Source of the DNA: Variovorax sp. OV329 | Lineage (GTDB): Bacteria > Pseudomonadota > Gammaproteobacteria > Burkholderiales > Burkholderiaceae_C | Length of the DNA stretch: 64,000 nucleotides | Assembly: GCF_900114785.1 (NCBI RefSeq) | Contig: NZ_FOUG01000010.1 | Coordinates: forward strand, 1-64,000 | Reading direction: 5' to 3' | Part shown: positions 26,725-58,767 of the stretch, piece by piece | Position numbering within the stretch: position 1 is the stretch's first letter | How the letters are laid out: the number at the start of each line of letters is the position of its first letter | Program-made: the position numbers and the translations under genes | Notes under the pieces: model-generated | Told to the model about the DNA's origin: nothing | Seen by the model: the letters and a program-made list of their open reading frames with translations, nothing else | Database searches by the model: none

Positions 26725-28518
<1,794 letters not shown>

Positions 28519-44816: not shown

Positions 44817-45725
44817 ATGGACATCCCCCTGGCCCAGACCTTCCTGGCCATTGCCGACAGCCACAGCTTCCAGCGCGCGGCCGAGCGCCTGCACGTGACG
44901 CAGACCGCCGTGAGCGCACGCGTGCGAAGCCTCGAAGAACAGTTGGACCGCCAGCTTTTCGTGCGCAACAAGTCGGGGGCCGTGCTGACGCCCGCCGGCG
45001 AGCGCTTCATGCCCCACGCACGCACCTTCGTGCAGGTCTGGGAACGCGCGCGCCAGCAGGTGGCGGTGCCGGCGGGGCGCCGCGCGGCGTTGGCTTTGGG
45101 CTGCGAGATCAGCCTGTGGCACCCACTGCTTCCGCGCTGGCTGGTGCGCATGCGCGAACGCGCCCCCGACCTGGCGCTTCGCTGCACGGTCGGCCCGCCG
45201 CACGAGCTGCTCGACCAGGTGGCCAGCGGCGTGCTCGACGTGGCGATTGCCTACGCCCCGCAGCAGAAGCCCGGCCTGCGGGTGGAACTGCTGATCGAGG
45301 AACGGCTGGTGATGGTCAGCAGCCAGCCCGGGCTGCGGACGCTGGAGGCGGCGGACTACGTGAACGTGGACTGGGGGCCGGAGTTCGAGGCGCAGCATGG
45401 GCTGGCCTTTCCGCAACTCTCGAATGCACCGCTGCAGGCCGGGCTGGGGCCGCTGGGGCTGGAGTACGTGCTGACGGCCGGCGGTACCGGCTACTTCCGC
45501 CAGGAGGTGGTGCGGCCTCACCTGGAGGCAGGTCGGCTGTACCGGGTGCCCGACACGCCGGAGTTTCTCTACCCGGCCTACGCGGTCTACGCGGCGGGCA
45601 CCGAGCAGGCGGCCCTGCACGAGGCGCTGGAAGGCCTGCGCGAAACGGCCGGCAGCTACCGAGAGACGGCGCCGGCGCCAGGGGACATGGGGAAAAAGCC
45701 TAGGACGCGTGCTGCGAAAACTTGA
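44817..45725 (+). CDS. LysR-family transcriptional regulator
   Basis: The 302-residue protein has an N-terminal winged helix-turn-helix (MDIPLAQTFLAIADSHSF, then AAERLHVTQTAVSARVRSLE) and a C-terminal effector-binding domain (about 90-290). ATG 44817 has CTGGAGG 11 nt upstream. It is divergent from the 79-residue gene and its start lies directly after a 9-bp inverted repeat, so it probably represses itself and the divergent gene. The C terminus after about 285 is Lys/Arg/Thr-rich (GKKPRTRAAKT), unusual for LysR proteins. Effector is unknown. Confidence 0.9.
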   Translation: MDIPLAQTFLAIADSHSFQRAAERLHVTQTAVSARVRSLEEQLDRQLFVRNKSGAVLTPAGERFMPHARTFVQVWERARQQVAVPAGRRAALALGCEISLWHPLLPRWLVRMRERAPDLALRCTVGPPHELLDQVASGVLDVAIAYAPQQKPGLRVELLIEERLVMVSSQPGLRTLEAADYVNVDWGPEFEAQHGLAFPQLSNAPLQAGLGPLGLEYVLTAGGTGYFRQEVVRPHLEAGRLYRVPDTPEFLYPAYAVYAAGTEQAALHEALEGLRETAGSYRETAPAPGDMGKKPRTRAAKT

Positions 45726-45735: not shown

Positions 45736-45803
45736 GCGCGGCGCCGCGTCGCCCCACACAGAATCCGCGACGAATGCGGACTTCCGTGCGTCAGAAACGA
45801 AGC

Positions 45804-46043
45804 TCAGTTCAGGCCGACGCGCGCGGCCCTGGCGCGCAGCTGCGCGGCCCGTGCCGGGTCGGTGGCTTCGGCCGCGTGGGCGGCCTTCAGCAGCGTGCGC
45901 ATCTGCTCCACCTCGCGCAGGATCTGGCCCGGGTTGAGCAGGGCCTGGATCAGGGCCGAAGCTTCATCGGCGAAGGTCTTCAACGCACCGGAAAAACCAC
46001 CGGAAACGGCAGATGCGGAAGTGGACGGGTTCAGCGCGGACAT
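45804..46043 (-). CDS. 79-residue hypothetical protein, second of a paralogous pair
   Basis: The protein is the same length as the product at 44462-44701 and similar over the last 60 residues (ALKTFADEASALIQALLNPG and onward, ending GLN). The N-terminal 19 residues differ. It has no recognised domain. Upstream of its ATG lies an 11-bp inverted repeat at 46089-46118 next to a TATAAA-like -10, both on its promoter side. The pair flanks the LysR gene, suggesting duplication of a small gene around its regulator or insertion of LysR between copies. Confidence 0.7.
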   Translation of the reverse strand: MSALNPSTSASAVSGGFSGALKTFADEASALIQALLNPGQILREVEQMRTLLKAAHAAEATDPARAAQLRARAARVGLN

Positions 46044-46207: not shown

Positions 46208-47140
46208 ATGACCACCCTGATCTACACCCACGACGACTGCCTGGAGCACCGCCCCGGACCGCATCACCCCGAATCGCCCGAACGGCTGCGCGCGGTGCTG
46301 GCGGCGCTGGAAGCGCCGGAATTCGCCAAGGCACGCTGGCGCGAGGCGCCGCTGGGCACCCGCGAGCAGGTGCTGCTGGTGCACACGCCCGACTACGTGG
46401 CCAGCGTGGAAGCCATGGCACCCATGGAGGGCTACCAGCTGCTCGATGCGGGCGACACCATCATGTCGCCCGGCACGCTGGCGGCGGTGATGCGCTGCGT
46501 GGGCGCGGCCTGTGCCGCGGTCGATGCGGTGATGGCCAGGGAGGCACGCAACGCCTTCTGCGCCACGCGCCCCTGCGGCCACCACGCCGAGGCGGACCGC
46601 GCGATGGGCTTCTGCGTCTACAACCAGGCGGCCATCGCCGCGCTGCACGCGCGCCAGGCGCACGGGCTGCAGCGCATCGCGGTGGTGGACTTCGACGTGC
46701 ACCATGGCAACGGCACGCAGCACGCGTTCTGGAACGACGGCGAGCTCTTCTACGGCTCCTCGCACCAGTCGCCCTTCTACCCGGGCACCGGCGCGCGCCA
46801 GGAGCACGGCGTGGCGAACAACATCGTGAACGTGCCGCTGTCCATGGCCTGCGACTCGCCCACCTTCCGATCGCGCATCACGGAAGACCTGCTGCCACCG
46901 CTGCGCCGCTTCGAGCCCGAGCTGCTCATCATCTCGGCCGGGCTCGATGCGCACTTCAAGGATCCGCTGGGCGGCCTGAGCCTCACCGACGACGACTTCC
47001 ACTGGGTCACCGCCGAGCTCATGAAGATCGCCGACGCCACCGCGCAGGGCCGCGTGGTGTCCATCCTCGAAGGCGGCTACAGCCTTCAGGCCCTGGCCAG
47101 CGGCACGGCCGCGCATGTGCGCGCGCTGATGCAGGCCTGA
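46208..47140 (+). CDS. Histone deacetylase-fold amidohydrolase
   Basis: The 310-residue zinc hydrolase has the deacetylase motif order: RPCGHHAEADRAMGFC (H125, H126), DFDVHHGNGTQ (D163, H165 as zinc ligands), and SAGLDAHFKDPLGG with D252 the third ligand. Bacterial members deacetylate acetylpolyamines, acetoin-type substrates or proteins. No acetoin or polyamine genes are adjacent. The ATG at 46208 is the only start consistent with the N-terminal TLIYTHDDCLEHRPGPHHPE. It ends 241 bp before the transporter receptor gene; that gap contains an FNR-like box. Confidence 0.92.
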   Translation: MTTLIYTHDDCLEHRPGPHHPESPERLRAVLAALEAPEFAKARWREAPLGTREQVLLVHTPDYVASVEAMAPMEGYQLLDAGDTIMSPGTLAAVMRCVGAACAAVDAVMAREARNAFCATRPCGHHAEADRAMGFCVYNQAAIAALHARQAHGLQRIAVVDFDVHHGNGTQHAFWNDGELFYGSSHQSPFYPGTGARQEHGVANNIVNVPLSMACDSPTFRSRITEDLLPPLRRFEPELLIISAGLDAHFKDPLGGLSLTDDDFHWVTAELMKIADATAQGRVVSILEGGYSLQALASGTAAHVRALMQA

Positions 47141-47261: not shown

Positions 47262-47279
47262 AATTGACTTCGGTCAATT
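47262..47279. promoter_or_regulatory. FNR/CRP-type box before transporter operon
   Basis: AATTGACTTCGGTCAATT has 7-bp inverted arms around TTCG. The core TTGAC-N4-GTCAA matches the FNR-type consensus TTGAT-N4-ATCAA except in the innermost base of each half. It lies about 103 bp before the receptor ATG, and is almost identical to the box at 51333-51346. Confidence 0.68.
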
Positions 47280-47381
47280 AGTGAACGTTTTCCAACGCGC
47301 AGCATCTGCGATCGTTAGAAAGGAACTCGAAAGCAATCTGAATCGAGCCAAGAAGAGAGCCGCAACAACTTAGGAGACAAC

Positions 47382-48404
47382 ATGATCAAGAGCCTTGCGT
47401 CCCGCGTCCTTTCCTGTCGTACGAAAGTCTGCGCCGCAGCTTTGCTGGCGCTGGCCGCCACGGCGCCAGCCTTCGCATGGGAACCCACCAAGCCAGTTGA
47501 ATTCGTGGTACCCGCAGGCACCGGCGGCGGCGCCGACCAGATGGCCCGCCTGATCCAGGGCATCGTGGTCAAGCACAAGCTCATGAAGGAGCCGCTGATC
47601 GTCGTCAACAAGTCGGGCGGCGCCGGTGCCGAAGGCTTTCTCGCCATCAAGGAAGCCAAGGGCGATCCACACAAGATCGTCGTGACCCTGTCCAACCTGT
47701 TCACCACGCCCATGGCCACCGGCGTGCCCTTCAACTGGAAGGACATGACGCCCGTCGCGATGATGGCACTGGACCAGTTCGTCCTGTGGACCAACGCCGA
47801 CGAGCCCTACAAGTCGGCCAACGAATACATCGCGGCCACCAAGGCCGCGGGCCCGAGCAAGATGAAGATGGGCGGCACCGGCTCCAAGCAGGAAGACCAG
47901 ATCATCACCGTGGCACTGGAGAAAGCCACCGGCACCAAGTTCATCTACGTGCCCTTCAAGGGCGGCGGCGAGGTGGCGGTGCAACTGGTGGGCGGCCACA
48001 TCAACTCGACGGTGAACAACCCGATCGAGGCCGTGGCCCAGTGGCGCGCCGGCAAGCTTCGCGCGCAGTGCGTGTTCGACGACCAGCGCATGCCCTACAA
48101 GGCCAAGGTGACCGACACCCAGTCCTGGAACGACATCCCCACCTGCAAGGAGGCCGGCGTGCCCACGGCCTACACCATGCTGCGCGGCATCTTCATGGCG
48201 CCTGGCGTGAAGCCCGATGAGCTGGCCTTCTACGTGGACCTGCTCAACAAGGTCAAGGCCACGCCGGACTGGGCCGAGTACATGGAGAAGGGTGCCTTCA
48301 ACCAGACCTTCATGTCTGGCGACCCCTTCAAGAAGTGGCTGACCGATGCCGAGGCCACCCACAAGACGTTGATGACCGAAGCCGGCTTCATGGCGCCCAA
48401 GTAA
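47382..48404 (+). CDS. Tripartite tricarboxylate transporter receptor (TctC/Bug)
   Basis: The 340-residue periplasmic receptor has a signal peptide ending ATAPAFA before WEPTKPVEFVVPAGTGGGADQMAR. NKSGGAGAEGFLAIKEA and FIYVPFKGGGEVAVQLVGGHINSTV are TctC/Bug features. An AGGAGA SD precedes ATG 47382. It leads the rightward unit receptor-tctB-tctA. An FNR-like box lies 103 bp upstream of the ATG. Given the oxalate genes 3 kb downstream, oxalate or a related C2/C3 diacid is a reasonable ligand guess, untested. Confidence 0.92.
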   Translation: MIKSLASRVLSCRTKVCAAALLALAATAPAFAWEPTKPVEFVVPAGTGGGADQMARLIQGIVVKHKLMKEPLIVVNKSGGAGAEGFLAIKEAKGDPHKIVVTLSNLFTTPMATGVPFNWKDMTPVAMMALDQFVLWTNADEPYKSANEYIAATKAAGPSKMKMGGTGSKQEDQIITVALEKATGTKFIYVPFKGGGEVAVQLVGGHINSTVNNPIEAVAQWRAGKLRAQCVFDDQRMPYKAKVTDTQSWNDIPTCKEAGVPTAYTMLRGIFMAPGVKPDELAFYVDLLNKVKATPDWAEYMEKGAFNQTFMSGDPFKKWLTDAEATHKTLMTEAGFMAPK

Positions 48405-48532
48405 GCGCGCGCCTTCTTCGACAGCCACCGCCCCATCGCGCGTCCCTGCAAGGACCGAAGCCGCCCGGCCCGCCGGGTGGCGGGGGGCGGTGCTGCCTGA
48501 TTCTTTCTTGAGACCTACGATGGAGATGATCG

Positions 48533-49042
48533 ATGGAGCATGAGGAGACAGCCCGGACGGGCATTGCCACCTGGGTGGTGGAAGCGGTGGTGGCGGCAGT
48601 GCTGCTGGTGGTCGGGATCGTCGTGATCGTCGAGAGCCGCCGCCTCGGCGCGGGCTGGACCAGCGACGGCCCGGGCTCGGGCTACTTTCCCTTCTACATC
48701 GGGCTGATCATCACGATCTCCTCGCTTGGCATCCTCTACCAGTCCGTGCTGGGCAAGGAGCGCAACACCGAGGTGTTCGTGGACCGCGTGCAACTCGGGC
48801 GCGTGATGTCGGTGCTGCTGCCGGCCATCGTGTACGTGGGGGCCATCTCGCTGGTGGGCATCTACGTGGCCTCGGCCATCTACATCGCCCTGTTCATGAT
48901 CGTGCTGGGCAAGTACTCGTGGATCAAGAGCGTGCTTGCCGCGGTGCTGATCAACGTCGTCTTCTTCTGCATGTTCGAGGTGTGGTTCAAAGTGCCCCTG
49001 TACAAGGGTGCATTCGATCCGCTCGCCTTCCTCGGTTACTGA
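48533..49042 (+). CDS. Tripartite tricarboxylate transporter small membrane subunit (TctB)
   Basis: The 169-residue protein has four hydrophobic segments (about 15-33, 51-68, 90-108, 115-148) and a GPGSGYFPFYIGLI motif between the first and second, typical of TctB. It lies 128 bp after the receptor gene and 15 bp before tctA. That 128-bp gap holds a GC-rich segment (CCGCCGGGTGGCGG) which may be a hairpin between receptor and channel genes, often used to raise receptor expression. ATG 48533 gives MEHEETARTG. Confidence 0.85.
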   Translation: MEHEETARTGIATWVVEAVVAAVLLVVGIVVIVESRRLGAGWTSDGPGSGYFPFYIGLIITISSLGILYQSVLGKERNTEVFVDRVQLGRVMSVLLPAIVYVGAISLVGIYVASAIYIALFMIVLGKYSWIKSVLAAVLINVVFFCMFEVWFKVPLYKGAFDPLAFLGY

Positions 49043-49057
49043 TCGGAGCCACGGGAA

Positions 49058-50587
49058 ATGGAAGAACTCAATGCCCTGATGCAGGGCTTTTCGGTGGTCA
49101 TCAGCCCGATGAACATCCTGCTGATGTTCGTCGGCATCATCCTGGGCGTGCTCATCGGCGTGCTGCCGGGCCTGGGCGGCGCCAACGGCGTGGCCATCCT
49201 GCTGCCGCTGACCTTCACGATGTCGCCGACCTCGGCGATCATCATGCTGTCGTGCATCTACTGGGGCGCCCTCTTCGGCGGCGCCATCACCTCGGTGCTC
49301 TTCAACATCCCGGGCGAGCCCTGGTCGGTGGCCACCACCTTCGACGGCTATCCCATGGCACAGCAGGGACGCGCCGGCGAAGCACTCACCAGCGCCTTCA
49401 CCTCGTCCTTCATCGGCGCGCTGGTGGCGGTGATCATGATCACCTTCATGGCGCCGCTGGTGGCCAAGTTCGCGCTGAAGTTCGGCTCGCCCGAATTCTT
49501 TGCCGTGTACCTGCTCACCTTCTGCAGCTTCGTGGGCATGGGCAAGGGCTCGCCCTTCAAGATCCTGGCCTCGATGGCGCTGGGCTTCGCGCTTGCCGCC
49601 GTGGGCATGGACACCGTCACCGGCCAGCTGCGCCTGACCTTCGGCCAGACCGAGCTGATGCGCGGCTTCGACTTCCTGATCGCGGTGATCGGCCTGTTCG
49701 GCATCGGCGAGATCCTGCAGTCGATGGAAGAAGGCCTCGAGTTCCAGGGCAAGAGCGCGAAGATCGATCCGAAGGTGGTGCTCAAGACCTGGGCACAGCT
49801 GCCCAAGTACTGGGTCACCTCGGTGCGCAGCTCGCTGATCGGCATCTGGATGGGCATCACCCCCGGTGGCGCCACGCCGGCCTCGTTCATGAGCTACGGC
49901 CTGGCCAAGAAGATGTCCAGGAACGGCAACAAGTTCGGCCAGGGCGAGATGGAAGGCGTGATCGCGCCCGAGACCGCCGCCCACGCCGCCGGCACCAGCG
50001 CCCTGCTGCCCATGCTGGCCCTGGGCATCCCGGGCTCGCCGACCGCCGCCGTGCTGCTGGGTGGCCTGCTGATCTGGGGCCTGCAGCCCGGACCGCTGCT
50101 CTTCGTGGAGCAGAAGGACTTCGTCTGGGGCCTGATCGCCTCCATGTACCTGGGCAACATCGTGGGCCTGGTCGTGGTGCTGAGCACGGTGCCGCTGTTC
50201 GCGTCGATCCTGCGCATCCCCTTCTCGATCATCGCGCCGGTGATCATCGTGATCTGCGCCATCGGGGCCTACACGGTGCACAACGCGATGCTGGACATCT
50301 GGTTCATGCTGGGCTTCGGCGTGGTGGGCTACCTGTTCAAGAAGCTGGACTTCCCGCTCGCGCCGCTGGTGCTGGCACTGGTGCTGGGGGACAAGGCCGA
50401 GGACTCGTTCCGCCAGGCCATGCTGGTCTCGCAGGGCGACGTGATGATCATGTTCGCGAACCCCCTGGTGGGCAGCATCACGACGCTGGCGCTTCTGATG
50501 CTGTTCTGGCCGCTGCTGGGCAAGCTGGTGGCTTTCATCAAGACGCCCAAGAAGGATGAATTCCACAAGGAACGGCCGGTCGATTGA
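49058..50587 (+). CDS. Tripartite tricarboxylate transporter large membrane subunit (TctA)
   Basis: The 509-residue polytopic protein has the TctA signatures VLPGLGGANGVAILLPLTF near the N terminus and GITPGGATPASFMSYGLAKK in the middle, repeated as an internal duplication. It forms the channel with TctB and uses the receptor at 47382. It carries about 12 hydrophobic segments. A strong terminator follows at 50608. Ion coupling is probably sodium or proton as in family members. Confidence 0.94.
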   Translation: MEELNALMQGFSVVISPMNILLMFVGIILGVLIGVLPGLGGANGVAILLPLTFTMSPTSAIIMLSCIYWGALFGGAITSVLFNIPGEPWSVATTFDGYPMAQQGRAGEALTSAFTSSFIGALVAVIMITFMAPLVAKFALKFGSPEFFAVYLLTFCSFVGMGKGSPFKILASMALGFALAAVGMDTVTGQLRLTFGQTELMRGFDFLIAVIGLFGIGEILQSMEEGLEFQGKSAKIDPKVVLKTWAQLPKYWVTSVRSSLIGIWMGITPGGATPASFMSYGLAKKMSRNGNKFGQGEMEGVIAPETAAHAAGTSALLPMLALGIPGSPTAAVLLGGLLIWGLQPGPLLFVEQKDFVWGLIASMYLGNIVGLVVVLSTVPLFASILRIPFSIIAPVIIVICAIGAYTVHNAMLDIWFMLGFGVVGYLFKKLDFPLAPLVLALVLGDKAEDSFRQAMLVSQGDVMIMFANPLVGSITTLALLMLFWPLLGKLVAFIKTPKKDEFHKERPVD

Positions 50588-50607
50588 TTCATCGCAAGGC
50601 ATGAAAG

Positions 50608-50640
50608 GACAAAAGGCGCCCGCGGGCGCCTTGTCTTTTT
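50608..50640 (+). terminator. Rho-independent terminator after tctA
   Basis: GGCGCCC (50615-50621) and GGGCGCC (50624-50630), extended by GACAA / TTGTC, are followed by TTTTT. It lies 20 bp after the tctA stop and before the convergent Crp/Fnr gene. Confidence 0.88.
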
Positions 50641-50660
50641 CAGCTCCACGCCGCGGATGG

Positions 50661-51269
50661 CTAGATTTTTCCCTTGGCGCGAAGGCGGCTCAGGGTTTCC
50701 GCCGAGAGGTTGAGGTAGGAAGCCAGCTCCTTGCGCGGAATGCGGTCGATGAGCTCGGGGTGCTTGCGCATGAAGCGGTGCACGCGGCCCGGCGCGTCCA
50801 GCAGGTGCAGCGTGATGGTGTGGGCCATGATCTCGCTCATGCCCTTCATCACCGCGTACTCGAAGTGCTCCTTGGCCTCCGAATGCCGGTTGAGGAAGGC
50901 GATCCACTCCTTGAGCGGCAGCGTGGCCACGCGGGCCTTGGTCACGCAGACGATGCCGTAGGGCGTGGGCGTGCCCAGGCGCAGCGCGGCATAGCTGGTC
51001 TCCATCTCGTTCTCGTCGGCGAAGCGCAGGATCATCTCCTTGCCCTCCGCGTTGCTCACCACGCGCTTGAGGATGCCGTCGAGGATGAAGTACTGGGCCA
51101 TCTCGCGCACGCCCTGGTGCAGCAGGAAATCGCCCTTGTTGCCCTCCACCACCACCAGGTGGCTCTCGAGTTCGGTTCGCTCGCTGTCGCTCAGGTCCTT
51201 GAGCACCACGTTTTCCCGGAGCTGGAGACGAATGATGTTTTTCTCCGGGTGGTTTTCCAACAAGGTCAT
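50661..51269 (-). CDS. Crp/Fnr-family regulator, candidate regulator of the oxalate locus
   Basis: The 202-residue protein has a cyclic-nucleotide-binding-like sensor domain (about 18-120) and a short C-terminal winged helix ending RKELASYLNLSAETLSRLRAKGKI. In the recognition helix E191, S194 and R195 match FNR residues E209, S212 and R213 that read TTGA half-sites. It lacks the FNR N-terminal Cys cluster, so the signal is not an Fe-S oxygen switch. ATG 51269 is the best start although SD is weak; GTG 51305 is an alternative. It is divergent from oxc, with a TTGAC-N4-GTCAA box in the 140-bp gap. Confidence 0.85.
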   Translation of the reverse strand: MTLLENHPEKNIIRLQLRENVVLKDLSDSERTELESHLVVVEGNKGDFLLHQGVREMAQYFILDGILKRVVSNAEGKEMILRFADENEMETSYAALRLGTPTPYGIVCVTKARVATLPLKEWIAFLNRHSEAKEHFEYAVMKGMSEIMAHTITLHLLDAPGRVHRFMRKHPELIDRIPRKELASYLNLSAETLSRLRAKGKI

Positions 51270-51332
51270 GGGGTCGTTTTGTTCTCTCGGCGTAGGTCTC
51301 CGCACACCCTGCCGGCGTCGTTTTCGCGAAAG

Positions 51333-51346
51333 TTGACTTTGGTCAA
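51333..51346. promoter_or_regulatory. FNR/CRP-type box between the Crp/Fnr gene and oxc
   Basis: TTGAC TTTG GTCAA differs from the box before the transporter operon at one position. A CATAGT -10-like hexamer at 51370-51375 would put the box near -42 from the start of transcription, the class II activator position. Confidence 0.7.
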
Positions 51347-51409
51347 CGCGCCGACGGCATGCCGCGAATCATAGTCGGGCCGTTCAGGCAAAACGCACTA
51401 AGGAGAGAC

Positions 51410-53194
51410 ATGTCTTCAGTCACCACGGACAAGCAGGAAGCGGCGCTCGACCCGGCGATCGCTCGTGCCATCAAGAGCATCGCGGACGAAGCGCCGCAAC
51501 GCGAAACCACCGATGGCTTCCATCTGGTGATCGATGCGCTCAAGCTCAACGGCATCGACACGATCTTCGGTCTGCCGGGCATTCCAATCACCGACCTCAC
51601 CCGCATGGCGCAGGCCGAAGGCATGCGCGTGATCTCTTTCCGCCACGAGCAGCACGCGGGCAACGCCGCCGCCGCCGCCGGCTTCCTGACGCAGAAGCCC
51701 GGCATTTGCCTGACGGTGTCGGCACCCGGCTTCCTCAACGGCCTCACCGCGCTGGCCAACGCCACAACCAACTGCTTCCCGATGATCCTCATCAGCGGCT
51801 CCTCGGAGCGCGAGATCGTCGACCTGCAGCAGGGCGACTACGAGGAGATGGACCAGTTGGCCATCGCCAAGCCGCTGTGCAAGGCCGCCTTCCGCGTGCT
51901 GCATGCGCAGGACATCGGCGTGGGCATCGCACGCGCCATCCGCGCCGCGCTGTCCGGCCGTCCCGGCGGCGTGTACCTGGACCTGCCGGCCAAGCTGTTC
52001 AGCCAGGTCATGGACGCCGAGGCGGGCAAGCATTCGCTGATCAAGGTGGTCGACCCGGCCCCGGCACAGATCCCTTCGAATGAATCGGTCAAGCGTGCGC
52101 TGGACCTGCTCAAGGAGGCCAAGCGCCCCCTGATCCTGCTGGGCAAGGGCGCTGCCTACGCGCAGGCCGATGCCGACATCCGCGCACTGGTCGAGAAGAG
52201 CGGCATCCCCTACCTGCCCATGTCGATGGCCAAGGGCCTGCTGCCCGACACGCACGAGCAGTCGGGCGCCGCCGCCCGCTCCTACGTGCTGCAGGAAGCC
52301 GACGTGGTGCTGCTGGTCGGCGCCCGCCTGAACTGGCTGCTCTCGCACGGCAAGGGCAAGACCTGGGGCGCCGACAAGGGCCCGAAGAAGTTCATCCAGA
52401 TCGACATCGCACCCACCGAGATCGACAGCAACGTCGCCATCGAGGCGCCGGTGATCGGCGACATCGGCTCCTGCGTGTCCGCCCTCGTGGCGGGCATGGG
52501 CAGCAACTGGGCCAAGCCGCCGGCCGAATGGACCGGCGCCATCGCCGAGCGCAAGGAGAAGAACCTGGCGAAGATGGCGCAGCAGCTGGCCGCCCGTCCC
52601 TCGCCGATGAACTTCCACAGCGCGCTGTCGGTGATCCGCGACCAGGTCAAGGCACGCCCCGACGCCATCATCGTGAACGAAGGCGCCAACACGCTGGACT
52701 TCGCCCGCTCCATCGTCGACATGTACGAGCCGCGCAAGCGCCTGGACGTGGGCACCTGGGGGATCATGGGCATCGGCATGGGCTTCTCGGTGGCCGCCGC
52801 GGTGGTCACGGGCAAGCCGGTGATCGCCATCGAGGGCGATAGCGCCTTCGGCTTCTCCGGCATGGAAGTGGAGACCATCTGCCGCTACAACCTGCCGATC
52901 TGCGTGATCGTCTTCAACAACAACGGCGTGTACCGCGGCACCGACGTGAACCCGAGCGGCACGCCCGACGTGGCGCCCACCGTGTTCGTGAAGAACGCGC
53001 GCTACGACAAGCTGATGGAAGCATTCGGCGGCCACGGCGTGAACGCCACCACCGCCGATGAATTGCAGAAGGCGCTGGCCGAAGCCGTCGCATCCGGCCG
53101 CCCGACCCTGATCAACGCAGTCATCGACGAGACCGCCGGCACCGAAAGCGGCCGCATCACCAGTCTCAACCCGGCCACGGCCAAGAAGAAGTAA
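51410..53194 (+). CDS. oxc: Oxalyl-CoA decarboxylase
   Basis: Oxc is a ThDP enzyme that converts oxalyl-CoA to formyl-CoA and CO2. The 594-residue protein has the catalytic ThDP Glu in [16 protein letters not shown] (E80), the diphosphate/magnesium motif GDSAFGFSG followed by [11 protein letters not shown], and [16 protein letters not shown], which I recognise from oxalyl-CoA decarboxylases. It is about 25 residues longer than the Oxalobacter enzyme (568), mainly at the N terminus. AAGGAG precedes ATG 51410. Frc1 follows after 27 bp. Together they make the formyl-CoA/oxalate cycle. Confidence 0.96.
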
Positions 53195-53221: not shown

Positions 53222-54490
53222 ATGACCAAACCTCTCGAAGGCATCAAGATCATCGACTTCACGCACGTGCAGGCCGGTCCGGCATGCACCCAGATGCTGG
53301 CCTGGTTCGGGGCCGACGTGATCAAGGTGGAGCGCCCCGGCGCCGGCGACGTCACGCGCAGCCAGTTGCGCGACATCCCGAACGTGGACGCGCTGTACTT
53401 CACCATGCTCAACAGCAACAAGCGCTCGATCACGCTGGACACCAAGACGGCCGAAGGCAAGGCGGTGCTGGAAAAGCTGGTGAAGGAATCCGACGTGCTG
53501 GTGGAGAACTTCGGCCCCGGCGCGCTCGACCGCATGGGCTTCACCTGGGCCCGCATCCAGGAACTGAACCCCAGGCTGATCCACGCATCGGTCAAGGGCT
53601 TCAGCGAAGGCCACCACTACGAAGACCTGAAGGTGTACGAGAACGTGGCGCAGTGCGCCGGCGGGGCCGCATCGACCACCGGCTGGTGGAAGGGCGAGAA
53701 CTCGCAGCCCACCATCAGCGCCGCGGCGCTGGGCGACTCCAACACCGGCATGCACCTGGCCATCGGCATCCTGACGGCCATCATCGGCCGCGAGAAGACC
53801 GGCAAGGGCCAGAAGGTGGCCTGCTCGATGCAGGACGCCGTGCTCAACCTGTGCCGCGTGAAGATGCGCGACCAGCAGCGCCTGGAGAAGATCGGCTACC
53901 TGGAAGAGTACCCCCAGTACCCGCACGAGATGGAGGCCTTCGAGAGCAAGGTCACGCCGCGCGGCGGCAATGCCGGCGGCGGCGGCCAGCCGGGCTGGAT
54001 CCTGAAGTGCAAGGGCTGGGAGACCGACCCCAACGCGTACATCTACTTCACCGTGCAGGGTCACGCCTGGGAGCCGATCTGCGACGCGCTGGGCAAGCCC
54101 GAGTGGAAGACCGATCCGGACTACACCACCGCCAAGGCACGCCAGCCGCACATCGAGCAGATCTTTGCCACCATCGAGGACTTCATCAAGGACAAGACCA
54201 AGTTCGAGGCGGTCGACATCTTCCGCAAGTTCGACATTCCCTGCGCCCCGGTGCTGTCGATGAAGGAACTGCTGGTCGACGAATCGCTGCGCAAGAGCGG
54301 CTCCATCGTCGAAGTGCAGCACAAGGAACGCGGCAGCTACTGGACCATCGGCAGCCCGATCAAGTTCTCGGACCTCAAGCCCGAAGTCACCGCCTCGCCG
54401 CTCTTGGGCGAGCACACCGACGACGTGCTGGCCGAGCTGGGCTACAGCAAGGACCAGATCGCCAAGCTGCACGAATCCAAGGTGGTGTGA
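53222..54490 (+). CDS. frc: Formyl-CoA:oxalate CoA-transferase 1
   Basis: Frc transfers CoA from formyl-CoA to oxalate, giving oxalyl-CoA. The 422-residue protein is a class III CoA-transferase, close in sequence and length to Oxalobacter Frc: [24 protein letters not shown]..., catalytic Asp D172 in [13 protein letters not shown], and the glycine loop [11 protein letters not shown] that closes the active site. The position of Oxalobacter W48 is Gln (Q48) here, as in E. coli YfdW. ATG 53222 follows CCAGGAG. It is the second gene of the oxc operon. Confidence 0.96.
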
Positions 54491-54541: not shown

Positions 54542-54598
54542 CATTGGATTCATTCTTGAGAGAGAACTCGCGCCCGTTTGCGCGAGAGGGGTGTTGTC

Positions 54599-55030
54599 AT
54601 GCCTTCTTCCGTACCTGTCGATCTCAACCAGCTGGTGGAAGGCGCCGGCGATTCCATCATCGTCTGTGACGCCCAGGGCGACATCGTCCTGTGGAACCCG
54701 GCCTCCGAGCGCATCTTCGGCTTCACCCCCGCCGAGGCGCTGGGCAAGAACCTCGACCTGATCATTCCCGAGCGGCAGCGTCAGCGCCACTGGGACGGCT
54801 ACGCCAAGACCATGGAAACCGGCGTCACGCGCTATGGCACTTCCCTCTTGAAGGTGCCCGCGCTGCACAAGGACGGCCACTCGCTTTCAATTGCGTTCAG
54901 CGTCTCGCTGTTGTTGGCGGACGACGGAACGGTCAACGGCATCGTCGCCATCGTGCGCGACGAATCCGCACGCTTCCAGGAAGACCGGAAGCTGCGCGCC
55001 CGCCTGGCAGAACTCGAATCCAAAAACTGA
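54599..55030 (+). CDS. Stand-alone PAS-domain protein
   Basis: The 143-residue protein is essentially one PAS domain (about 10-122: GDSIIVCDAQGDIVLWNPASERIFGFTPAEALG, then PALHKDGHSLSIAFSVSLLLADDG) with a short coiled C terminus. There is no kinase, GGDEF or DNA-binding domain, so it must act on a separate partner. HWDGYAKTMETG contains H64, at the place of the heme-ligand His in some PAS sensors such as E. coli Dos. ATG 54599 follows GAGAGGGG. It lies between the two frc genes, 12 bp before frc2, so it is probably part of the oxalate operon. Confidence 0.85.
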   Translation: MPSSVPVDLNQLVEGAGDSIIVCDAQGDIVLWNPASERIFGFTPAEALGKNLDLIIPERQRQRHWDGYAKTMETGVTRYGTSLLKVPALHKDGHSLSIAFSVSLLLADDGTVNGIVAIVRDESARFQEDRKLRARLAELESKN

Positions 55031-55042
55031 AGGAGCTTTTCC

Positions 55043-56296
55043 ATGCTTGGCGCCAAGGCACTCGACGGGGTGCGAATCCTCGATTTCACGCACGTCCAAT
55101 CCGGACCGACCTGCACGCAGCTGCTGGCCTGGTTCGGGGCGGACGTGATCAAGGTGGAGCGCGCCGGTGAAGGCGATGCGACGCGCGGGCAACTGCGCGA
55201 CATCCCGGGCGTGGACAGCCTCTACTTCACCATGCTCAACCACAACAAGCGGTCGATCACGCTGGACACCAAGAAGCCCGAGGGGCGCAAGGTGCTGGAC
55301 CGCCTGATCAAGACCTGCGACGTGCTGGTGGAGAACTTCGCGCCCGGCGCGCTCGACCGCATGGGCATCACCTGGGAGCACATCCACGAGCTGAACCCGC
55401 GCATGATCGTCGCCTCGGTCAAGGGTTTCGGCCCCGGCAAGTACGAGGACTGCAAGGTCTACGAGAACGTGGCGCAGTGCGCCGGCGGCGCGGCCTCCAC
55501 CACCGGCATGGAAGACGGCCCGCCGATGGTGACCGGCGCGCAGATCGGCGACAGTGGCACCGGCCTGCACCTGGCGCTGGGCATCGTGGCGGCGCTCTAC
55601 CAGCGCACCATGACCAACCGCGGCCAGAAGGTGCTCGCACCCATGCAGGACGCGGTGCTCAACCTGTGCCGCGTGAAGTTGCGCGACCAGCAGCGCCTGG
55701 AACGCACCCACACCATGCACGAGTACCCGCAGTACCCGGACGGCAAGTTCGGCGACGCGGTGCCGCGCGCAGGCAACGCCTCGGGCGGCGGCCAGCCGGG
55801 CTCCATCCTCAAGTGCAAGGGCTGGGAGACCGACCCCAACGCCTACATCTACTTCATCACGCAGGCCGCCGTGTGGCCGGCCATCTGCCGCGTGATCGGC
55901 GAGGAAGGCTGGATCGACGACGAGGCCTACGCCACGCCGCAGGCCCGCCTGCTGCACCTGAAGCCCATCTTCAGGCGCATCGAGCAATGGACCATGACCA
56001 AGACCAAGTTCGAGGCCATGGACATCCTCAATGAGCTGGACATCCCCTGCGGCCCGATCCTGTCGATGAAGGAAATCGCCGAGGACGAGTCGCTGCGCGC
56101 CAGCGGCACGCTGGTGGAGGTTGACCATCCCACGCGCGGCAAGTACCTGACGGTGGGCAACCCCATCAAGCTGAGCGACAGCCCGACCGACGTCACCCGC
56201 TCTCCCCTGCTGGGCGAGCACACCGACGACGTGCTGGGCCAGCTGGGCTACAGCGCCGAGGAAGTGGCGCTGCTGCGCGAGCAGAAGGTCGTCTGA
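55043..56296 (+). CDS. Formyl-CoA:oxalate CoA-transferase 2 (class III CoA-transferase)
   Basis: The 417-residue protein is a paralogue of Frc1: [20 protein letters not shown], catalytic Asp D170 in [14 protein letters not shown], and the glycine loop NASGGGQPG. It also has Gln at the W48-equivalent position (Q50). The glycine loop is one Gly shorter than in Frc1 and the following segments differ, so a different acyl donor or acceptor, for example succinyl-CoA or another acid such as in the E. coli YfdE/YfdW pair, is possible. AAGGAG lies before ATG 55043. It is the last oxalate gene before a 220-bp AT-rich gap. Confidence 0.93.
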
Positions 56297-56882: not shown

Positions 56883-57731
56883 GTGAGCATCGACACCATC
56901 ACCAGCCCCGGCGCCGCGCCGGCCCGTGTCCAGACTCCGCAGGCACCGCAGCGCCGCTGGCTGCGCTTTCGCCACGCGGGCAAGACCAGCTTCGGCGTCC
57001 TGCATGGCAACACGGTGCATGAATGGCAGGGCGACATGTTCGGCGCCTGCAGCCCCTCCGGCGTCATCCTGACGGTGGCCGAGATCGAGCTGCTCACGCC
57101 CACCCTGCCGAGCAAGGTGATCGCGCTGTGGAACAACTTCAAGGCGCTGGGCGAGAAGCTGCAGCTGGCCGTGCCGGCCGAGCCGCTTTACCTGGTGAAG
57201 ACACCCAACTCCTATCTCGCGACGAAGCAGACCATCCGCCCGCCCGTGAGCGGCGGCAAGGTGGTGTTCGAAGGCGAGCTGGGCATCGTCATCGGCAAGA
57301 CCGCCACCGCGGTAAGCGAGGCGGATGCCCTGGACCATGTGTTCGGCTACACCTGCGCCAACGACGTGACGGTGGCCGACATCCTCAATCGCGACGCCTC
57401 CTTCGCCCAATGGGTGCGGGCCAAGGGCTTCGACACTTTCTGCCCGATGGGCCCGGTGGTCGCCACCGGCCTCGATCCGGCCACGCTCACCGTGACCACG
57501 CTGCTGGACGGCCAGATCCGCCAGCACTACCCGGTGAGCGACATGCGTTTCTCGGTGGCACAGCTGGTGAGCCTCATCTCCATGGACATGACGCTCTTTC
57601 CTGGCGACGTGATCCTGTGCGGGACCTCCATCGGCGTGGGCTCGATGAAGGCCGGCAGCAGCGTAGAGGTGGAGATCGACGGCATCGGCCGTCTCTCCAA
57701 CCCCTATGGCAGCGCCGCGCCACCGATCTGA
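56883..57731 (+). CDS. Fumarylacetoacetate hydrolase-family protein
   Basis: The 282-residue protein has the FAH metal site (E130 and E132 in FEGELGIVIG, D161 in CANDVTVAD) and AQLVSLISMDMTLFPGDVILCGTSIG near the C terminus. Family members hydrolyse C-C bonds in beta-diketones, decarboxylate oxaloacetate, or hydrate 2-oxo acids. The N-terminal 25 residues are Pro/Ala-rich and variable. GTG 56883 is preceded by GAAGGAA. Next to the ketopantoate-reductase-like gene it may process a 2-oxo acid. Which acid is unknown. Confidence 0.88.
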   Translation: MSIDTITSPGAAPARVQTPQAPQRRWLRFRHAGKTSFGVLHGNTVHEWQGDMFGACSPSGVILTVAEIELLTPTLPSKVIALWNNFKALGEKLQLAVPAEPLYLVKTPNSYLATKQTIRPPVSGGKVVFEGELGIVIGKTATAVSEADALDHVFGYTCANDVTVADILNRDASFAQWVRAKGFDTFCPMGPVVATGLDPATLTVTTLLDGQIRQHYPVSDMRFSVAQLVSLISMDMTLFPGDVILCGTSIGVGSMKAGSSVEVEIDGIGRLSNPYGSAAPPI

Positions 57732-57756
57732 TTTTCAAAACTTCCTGGAACACAAC

Positions 57757-58767
57757 ATGAAAATCGCAGTGATCGGCGCCGGTGCCATCGGCGGCCTGGT
57801 GGGAGCCCGGCTCGCCCTGGCCGGAGAGGACGTCACCTTCCTCGTGCGGGGAAAGAACCTGTCGGCCATTCGCGAGAACGGCTTCAAGCTGGTGGCCGCC
57901 GACGGCAGCGAAGAGGTCGCGCGGCTCAAGGCCACCGATCGCTACGCCGAGGCCGGCGCGCAGGACCTGGTGATCCTGGCGATGAAGGCGCACCAGGTCG
58001 AGGCCGTGCTGCCCGAGCTTCACCACCTGATGGGTCCGGACACTGTCGTTCTGCCGATGCAGAACGGCATTCCCTTCTGGTACTTCCACCGCCACGGCGG
58101 CGCACTGGAAGGCACGCCGGTGCGCAGCGTGGACCCCGAAGGCACGGTCTCGCGCAGCATCGACGCGCGGCGCATCCTGGGCTGCGTGGTCTACCCGGCG
58201 TCCGAACTGGTGGCGCCCGGCGTGGTGCATCACATCGAGGGCGACCGGTTCCCGCTGGGCGAGATTGACGGCAGCGCGACCAGCGAACGCGTGCAGCGCG
58301 TGAGCGAGGCCTTCACCCGCGCCGGCTTCAAGTCGCCGGTGCTGGAGGACATCCGCTCGGAGATCTGGCTCAAGCTGTGGGGCAACCTGAGCTTCAACCC
58401 GATCAGCGCGCTCTCGCATGCCACGCTGGTGGACATCTGCCGGTACCCGCTGTCGCGCGAGCTGGCCGCCAACATGATGCGCGAGGCGCAGGCCGTGGCC
58501 ACGCGCCTGAACATCACCTTCCGCGTGCCGCTGGAAAAGCGCATCGCCGGTGCCGAGAAGGTGGGCAAGCACAAGACCTCGATGCTGCAGGACGTGGAAG
58601 CGGGCCGCGCGCCGGAAATCGACGCGCTGGTGGGCTCGGTGGCAGAGCTCGCGCGCCTCACCGAGACGCCCACGCCGCACATCGACACGGTGTATGCGCT
58701 GGTGAAGCTGCTGGCACGCGGCATGGAAGAAGCGGGCGCCGGGGTTCGCATGCAAGCGGCGGCCTGA
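57757..58767 (+). CDS. Ketopantoate reductase-family protein, possible oxalyl-CoA reductase (PanE2-like)
   Basis: The 336-residue protein has a Rossmann motif GAGAIGGLVGARLA (7-20), LVILAMKAHQVEAVLP, MQNGIPF, and the catalytic Lys in WLKLWGNLSFNPISAL (K206). This is the PanE/ApbA fold. In Methylobacterium extorquens a PanE-family protein (PanE2) reduces oxalyl-CoA to glyoxylate; a copy between frc genes and gcl fits that role better than pantothenate synthesis. Sequence alone does not distinguish them. It starts ATG 57757, 25 bp after the FAH gene. A terminator follows. Confidence 0.85.
   Translation: MKIAVIGAGAIGGLVGARLALAGEDVTFLVRGKNLSAIRENGFKLVAADGSEEVARLKATDRYAEAGAQDLVILAMKAHQVEAVLPELHHLMGPDTVVLPMQNGIPFWYFHRHGGALEGTPVRSVDPEGTVSRSIDARRILGCVVYPASELVAPGVVHHIEGDRFPLGEIDGSATSERVQRVSEAFTRAGFKSPVLEDIRSEIWLKLWGNLSFNPISALSHATLVDICRYPLSRELAANMMREAQAVATRLNITFRVPLEKRIAGAEKVGKHKTSMLQDVEAGRAPEIDALVGSVAELARLTETPTPHIDTVYALVKLLARGMEEAGAGVRMQAAA

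Follow-up and report, generated by a model that had tools for sequence, protein, structure and literature searches.

The stretch analysed here (the window) comprises 64,000 nucleotides of contig NZ_FOUG01000010.1 of Variovorax sp. OV329 and carries a locus for oxalate use, in which the gene for a 202-amino-acid protein of the Crp/Fnr superfamily is divergent from oxc, encoding oxalyl-CoA decarboxylase. Comparative sequence analysis makes it probable that this protein is a transcription activator dedicated to the oxalate pathway. The regulon that it is predicted to run is lineage-specific. The finding is real and somewhat larger than was stated in a first-pass annotation of the same DNA, where two short palindromes (boxes) were held to link the local Crp/Fnr protein, here called the regulator and apparently unstudied, to the oxc operon and to the operon of a tripartite tricarboxylate transporter (TTT). 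That proposal gained strong comparative support from the co-occurrence of the regulator and oxc, from the conservation of the promoters and from the way in which the boxes followed rearranged genes. The two boxes lie where they had been placed, TTGACTTCGGTCAA upstream of the transporter receptor gene tctC and TTGACTTTGGTCAA between the regulator gene and oxc, and do differ at one base; a third exact site, TTGACGCGGGTCAA, is found upstream of a gene for a histone-deacetylase-family hydrolase (hdac).

Distribution of the regulator was compared with that of oxc at several taxonomic ranks. Among 100 genomes of the genus (its own included), 57 held the regulator at 80-100% identity, the same 57 held oxc and the other 43 held neither; beyond the 57, matches at 22-29% identity only were obtained in 24 genomes and represent other Crp/Fnr proteins. 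G029, one of the 57, has the two genes on different contigs. The regulator was present in 27 of 150 genomes of the family and, at a threshold of E 1e-20, in 54 of 300 genomes of the order (own genome included), of which 51 had oxc; both genes occurred in 46, oxc alone in 5, the regulator alone in 8 and neither in 241 (Fisher p 5e-40, not corrected for phylogeny). Scans of the class (369 genomes) and of the phylum (398 genomes) at E 1e-25 revealed no regulator outside the order, the only matches being in its own, same-family and same-order genomes.

Conservation of the boxes was assessed in loci fetched for 55 of the 56 same-genus relatives (G029 was left out), to which loci from three further searches, those of the family and of the order among them, were added. 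One relatives search contributed the best 80 of 134 relatives; of these, L125-L160, L162-L165 and L173, which for the most part repeat Variovorax contigs already fetched, were left out of the comparison of locus layout, and for the order sample loci were covered for 30 of the 54 regulator-bearing genomes. Upstream of oxc genes beside the regulator, the pattern TTGAYN4RTCAA was found in 116 of 119 distinct sequences, distinct here not meaning phylogenetically independent. Two of the three misses had a box with one mismatch, and the third (L207) has only a partial oxc match, so that its exact box was not within the part scanned. Beside the regulator, tctC was likewise preceded by a box in 75 of 77 distinct sequences. 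The consensus in relatives is TTGAC-N4-GTCAA, in which T or A sometimes replaces the inner base; a sequence logo is uninformative for the outer bases, as these are fixed by the search pattern itself.

Boxes also accompanied genes that had changed position. Where tctC lies downstream of oxc (L171, L174 and L176) it keeps a box of its own, and in L174 and L176 a box is gained by frc, encoding formyl-CoA transferase, as well; in loci with oxc on the opposite flank of the regulator (e.g. L195, L198, L199 and L203), the box is at the new oxc start. The same holds for oxc genes on contigs other than that of the regulator, TTGACCAAGGTCAA being found 217-251 bp before the oxc match in G255 and G303, and the box TTGACGCAAGTCAA being present in G249. 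Genes preceded by boxes in the relatives' loci are oxc, tctC, oxlT (oxalate/formate antiporter), frc and hdac. When oxc loci of the order sample were collected with the oxc model alone (29 loci of the 51 genomes, omitting the own genome and genomes for which no locus was given), an exact-pattern box lay no more than about 520 bp upstream in 23 of the 25 whose genomes carry the regulator, the remaining two having a box with one mismatch, but in none of the four whose genomes lack it. Nor was there a box in stretches of 17.6-19 kb around the oxc genes of five regulator-less genomes (0/5); one of these (L289) has a looser TTGACCAAGCTCAA more than 1 kb away.

The regulator combines an N-terminal domain of the cyclic-nucleotide (cNMP)-binding type with a C-terminal helix-turn-helix (HTH) that has base-reading residues in its recognition helix, as is characteristic of the Crp/Fnr superfamily. 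The residues E191, S194 and R195, to which the first-pass annotation had drawn attention, are present and invariant in 49 of 49 aligned sequences (window protein included); their equivalents serve FNR in reading TTGA. In an AlphaFold2 model (pLDDT 88.4) the helix of residues 190-198 is the last element, and the chain stops at residue 202, four residues past it, so that the beta wing of a typical winged HTH, which is usual in Crp/Fnr proteins and not required for membership of the superfamily, is absent. The label 'FNR-like' used in the first-pass annotation is apt for the DNA-reading residues and not for the half-site, mostly TTGAC rather than TTGAT, or for the cysteines. The site of FNR proper is TTGAT-N4-ATCAA, which the boxes do not match, and four cysteines hold its [4Fe-4S] cluster; the window protein has a single cysteine (C108) and the 49 sequences have 0 to 3, with none in 14, so that there is no FNR-type iron-sulphur (Fe-S) cluster, as had been stated. 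A match to encapsulin 2B in the NCBIfam search was rejected, its score being far under the cut-off. Elsewhere in the window (27046-27300, minus strand) there is another cNMP-binding-domain match, stronger than that of the regulator, and one relative carries a second regulator paralogue (L231, G165:C155:13813-14409; 46% identical) that adjoins tctC with boxes of its own, about 5 kb from the first.

From these features we infer DNA binding, activation rather than repression, the transcription starts, the role of the TTT as an oxalate carrier and the nature of the ligand. A dimer of the regulator would read TTGAC-N4-GTCAA (relaxed, TTGAY-N4-RTCAA) through E191, S194 and R195, would occupy the class II position, centred at about -41.5 to -42.5, in the promoters of oxc, tctC and hdac, and would turn on oxalate uptake (by the TTT here and by an OxlT-type antiporter encoded on another contig) jointly with the oxc-frc operon; it would probably also tune its own divergent gene. 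As its signal, the protein would most likely bind oxalate itself or one of the pathway's CoA thioesters in the cNMP-like pocket.

A different signal, namely redox, energy state or a cyclic nucleotide, by which general physiology rather than oxalate would gate the pathway, is unlikely but deserves consideration, as the Crp/Fnr family senses many signals, according to the part of PMC12937710 available. Residues in the pocket region are indeed conserved, but there are no Fe-S cysteines and the regulator is kept in eight oxc-less genomes alongside other genes of the pathway (see below). Furthermore, E72, R82 and S83, the cassette with which CRP binds the phosphate of cyclic AMP, align to S92, T102 and P103 in the regulator, so that this cassette is absent.

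The geometry of the promoters bears on the mode of control. A -10-like hexamer follows the start of the box by 37 bases in the oxc and hdac promoters and by 36 in that of tctC. With an assumed transcript start 7 nt past the hexamer, which puts the predicted starts near 51382 (oxc), 47312 (tctC) and 45771 (hdac), box centres fall at -41.5 to -42.5 (Table 1); for the oxc-side box this agrees with the placement near -42 of a CATAGT that had been suggested earlier. FNR and CRP make contact with RNA polymerase from this position, known as class II, and activation is therefore the likeliest mode. That the regulator is instead a repressor lying over the promoter and released by an inducer seems quite improbable: the divergent arrangement of the genes would suit a repressor and a box near -42 could equally block RNA polymerase, but box centres of -41.5 to -42.5 combined with poor -10 elements at the three promoters make up the classical geometry of an activator.

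The regulon proposed here is wider than the two operons of the first-pass annotation, adding hdac and an oxalate/formate antiporter gene on another contig. A box lies 83-252 bp before the antiporter gene in 32 of 33 Variovorax stretches, the 33 being those of 56 that hold the gene start (identity of the antiporter was taken from TIGR04259 for the L072 copy). The own genome's best antiporter lies on contig C14, which the assembly does not join to the window, and its match is preceded by TTGACTGCGATCAA at a distance of 170 bp. Another antiporter that scores above the TIGR04259 cut-off (L311, G000:C13:59626-60840) is preceded by no more than a weak box-like sequence, ATGACTTTGGTCAT. All five hdac-bearing loci examined (window, G028, G036, G078 and G091) have the box upstream, and in each of the four relatives CAGAAT stands beside it at the oxc spacing; a locus with no hdac match (L321) has no third box. 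The box is 63 bp before hdac in G091 (L319), with nothing recognised between the two, and is separated from hdac by a small opposite-strand open reading frame (ORF) in the window, G028, G036 and G078. The site at 45722 was at first judged a chance occurrence, lying as it does between convergent genes, a judgement that was dropped after boxes with the same -10 spacing were found in the four relatives. The ORF between box and hdac in the window (45806-46043, minus strand) encodes 79 amino acids, and L307 contains a second copy, 47% identical, across a lysR gene.

Several observations weigh against a dedicated activator. The box-bearing loci share descent, so the p-values overstate independence, and the regulator-less oxc loci available for comparison number only five. 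The box is missing upstream of tctC in L188 and L189 and upstream of the antiporter in L114, and 5 of the 95 added stretches have no exact-pattern box (L172, with one mismatch; L178; and L248, L252 and L255, each of 3.6 kb). Several regulator genes (e.g. L196, L241-L243 and L258) have no box at their own start, which indicates that autoregulation is not general, and the -10 elements of tctC are a poor match to the consensus. A genome scan for TTGAC-N4-GTCAA, which the first-pass annotation had put forward as a way of defining the regulon, gave five exact sites in the own genome against six for the reversed control; three of the five fall inside 5.6 kb of the window. The other two look unrelated to oxalate genes, that on C30 lying between htpX- and rsmB-like ORFs (named from reading their translations) and that on C46 within a repetitive ORF, neither with an evident link to oxalate; the C30 14-mer also occurs in the genome of the regulator-less G092. 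Finally, the own genome yields 19 cNMP-binding-domain matches, the regulator included, which leaves room for another Crp/Fnr protein to act at the boxes.

Such a protein might be an oxygen-responsive one of the FNR/ANR type or a global regulator, the neighbouring gene being a bystander. TTGA half-sites are of the FNR type, and exact sites occur in regulator-less genomes of the genus as well (mean 4.4 per genome against 6.3 in those with the regulator, p 7e-5; controls equal at 3.3 and 3.3), a background from which it is clear that the motif is not exclusive to the oxalate system. We nevertheless regard this explanation as very improbable, because the oxc boxes track the regulator (23/25 with it and 0/4 without, plus the fifth locus without), because in genomes that carry the regulator an unlinked oxc retains its box (G249, G255 and G303) and because the half-sites are mostly TTGAC, not TTGAT.

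By the window alone the number of boxes is only mildly unlikely (three sites at up to one mismatch, all three exact; expected mean 0.83; at least three in 4 of 100 shuffles), and it is only through conservation in relatives that the signal rises far above chance. That conservation practically rules out chance palindromes, which the own-genome counts, not above the reversed control, would by themselves allow: 1.8 Mb of regulator-bearing loci contain 306 TTGAYN4RTCAA sites, compared with 0-4 per local shuffle (n=5, 60-bp, single-base) and 0 for the reversed pattern, and their positions recur at promoters.

The eight order-sample genomes that have the regulator without a TIGR03254 oxc retain frc-like genes together with OxlT or TTT genes. 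In seven of them (L292-L298) an uncharacterised thiamine diphosphate (ThDP) enzyme takes the place of oxc beside the regulator and the box, and in L292 it is followed by frc1, a PAS-domain gene and frc2, as oxc is in the window. We put forward, tentatively and as somewhat less than an even prospect, a broader suggestion: that a wingless Crp/Fnr family, seen so far only in Burkholderiales, directly senses either oxalate or the CoA ester of oxalate, that it controls oxc-frc and an hdac-family hydrolase in concert with two kinds of oxalate transporter, and that its regulon marks a second, unrecognised family of oxalyl-CoA (or related acyl-CoA) decarboxylases.

The assignment of the locus to oxalate use follows from the presence together of the TTT, oxc, two frc genes, the PAS-domain, fumarylacetoacetate-hydrolase (FAH)-family and PanE-like genes and a glyoxylate carboligase, which is also among the neighbours in the window (Table 1). 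The transporter is complete (TctC, TctB and TctA) and would carry oxalate. The PAS gene is between or beside frc genes in many relatives, and also stands beside frc1 in the regulator-less L301 and L302.

Table 1. Features of the oxalate locus in the window, with the ThDP enzymes of two relatives (positions in their own loci).
Feature	Position	Strand	Remarks
Third box, TTGACGCGGGTCAA	45722..45735	.	exact site, 5' of hdac
-10-like CAGAAT for hdac	45759..45764	+	box centre -42.5, oxc spacing; in all five hdac-locus sequences compared
hdac, histone-deacetylase-family hydrolase	46208..47140	+	proposed regulon member; PF00850 304 bits; shares box and spacing
Box, TTGACTTCGGTCAA	47264..47277	.	5' of tctC
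-10-like CAGCAT for tctC	47300..47305	+	box centre about -41.5; weak consensus match; comparable CANCAT at roughly the same distance in many Variovorax loci
tctC, TTT receptor	47382..48404	+	PF03401
tctB	48533..49042	+	PF07331
tctA	49058..50587	+	PF01970
Crp/Fnr-type regulator, 202 aa	50661..51269	-	cNMP-binding fold and HTH; Pfam PF00027 E 6e-9
Box, TTGACTTTGGTCAA	51333..51346	.	intergenic, between divergent regulator and oxc genes
-10-like CATAGT for oxc	51370..51375	+	box centre about -42.5; recurs at fixed box distance in relatives
oxc, oxalyl-CoA decarboxylase	51410..53194	+	TIGR03254 1003 bits (cut-off 739); closest PDB 7ayg, Oxc
frc1, formyl-CoA:oxalate CoA-transferase	53222..54490	+	TIGR03253 720 bits (cut-off 504)
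Stand-alone PAS-domain protein	54578..55030	+	inside oxc gene run; PF00989
frc2, second formyl-CoA transferase	55043..56296	+	TIGR03253 711 bits
FAH-family gene	56883..57731	+	possibly same operon; NCBIfam matches under cut-off; in most relatives' stretches
PanE-like reductase (2-dehydropantoate 2-reductase family)	57754..58767	+	NF005089 461 bits (cut-off 223)
ThDP enzyme, L292	10103-11869		best PDB match 2-hydroxyacyl-CoA lyase (7pt3)
ThDP enzyme, L295	6497-8218		

Among known Crp/Fnr proteins, FNR and DNR differ from the regulator, which has no Fe-S cysteines, no HTH wing, mostly TTGAC in place of TTGAT, and oxalate genes as targets. NtcA responds to 2-oxoglutarate; it is set apart by its target genes and distribution. 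The closest PDB sequence is 3dn7 (E 8.5e-14), a cyclic-nucleotide-binding regulator of Cytophaga hutchinsonii, which belongs to a different phylum; its 194 residues align as far as residue 191, so that it likewise ends near the recognition helix. CprK of Desulfitobacterium, described in the accessible part of PMC12937710 as a Crp/Fnr activator of halorespiration genes that binds o-chlorophenolacetic acid, is similar in being dedicated to a pathway and in having a small acid as effector, whereas the effector proposed for the regulator is a prediction, and differs in the pathway served. Transcription of one oxc-frc operon, yfdXWUVE (oxc and frc) of Escherichia coli, is controlled by EvgA by way of inverted repeats (PMC3720670, available in part); EvgA, however, is a two-component acid-response regulator and not a Crp/Fnr protein. 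No paper on a Crp/Fnr regulator of oxalate genes was recognised in a literature search that covered mostly titles and the starts of abstracts, with subscription journals thinly represented, and a term search of the main text of PMC12927642, PMC3886118 and PMC9476978, so far as accessible, did not find the word 'regulator'. Within that coverage, the first-pass view that this is not a described system stands.

Soils and plants commonly contain oxalate, yet in the literature searched, as far as its partial coverage goes, no oxalate-dedicated regulator was met, EvgA being the sole regulator of oxc-frc there. For Variovorax the analysis yields a defined protein, a candidate operator and a regulon open to testing, which could form the basis of an oxalate biosensor, and the boxes may offer a route to undescribed oxalate transporters and enzymes. 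The conserved site before genes of both import and breakdown points to a dedicated and apparently unstudied switch by which Variovorax-related soil bacteria would turn on the use of oxalate from plants and fungi.

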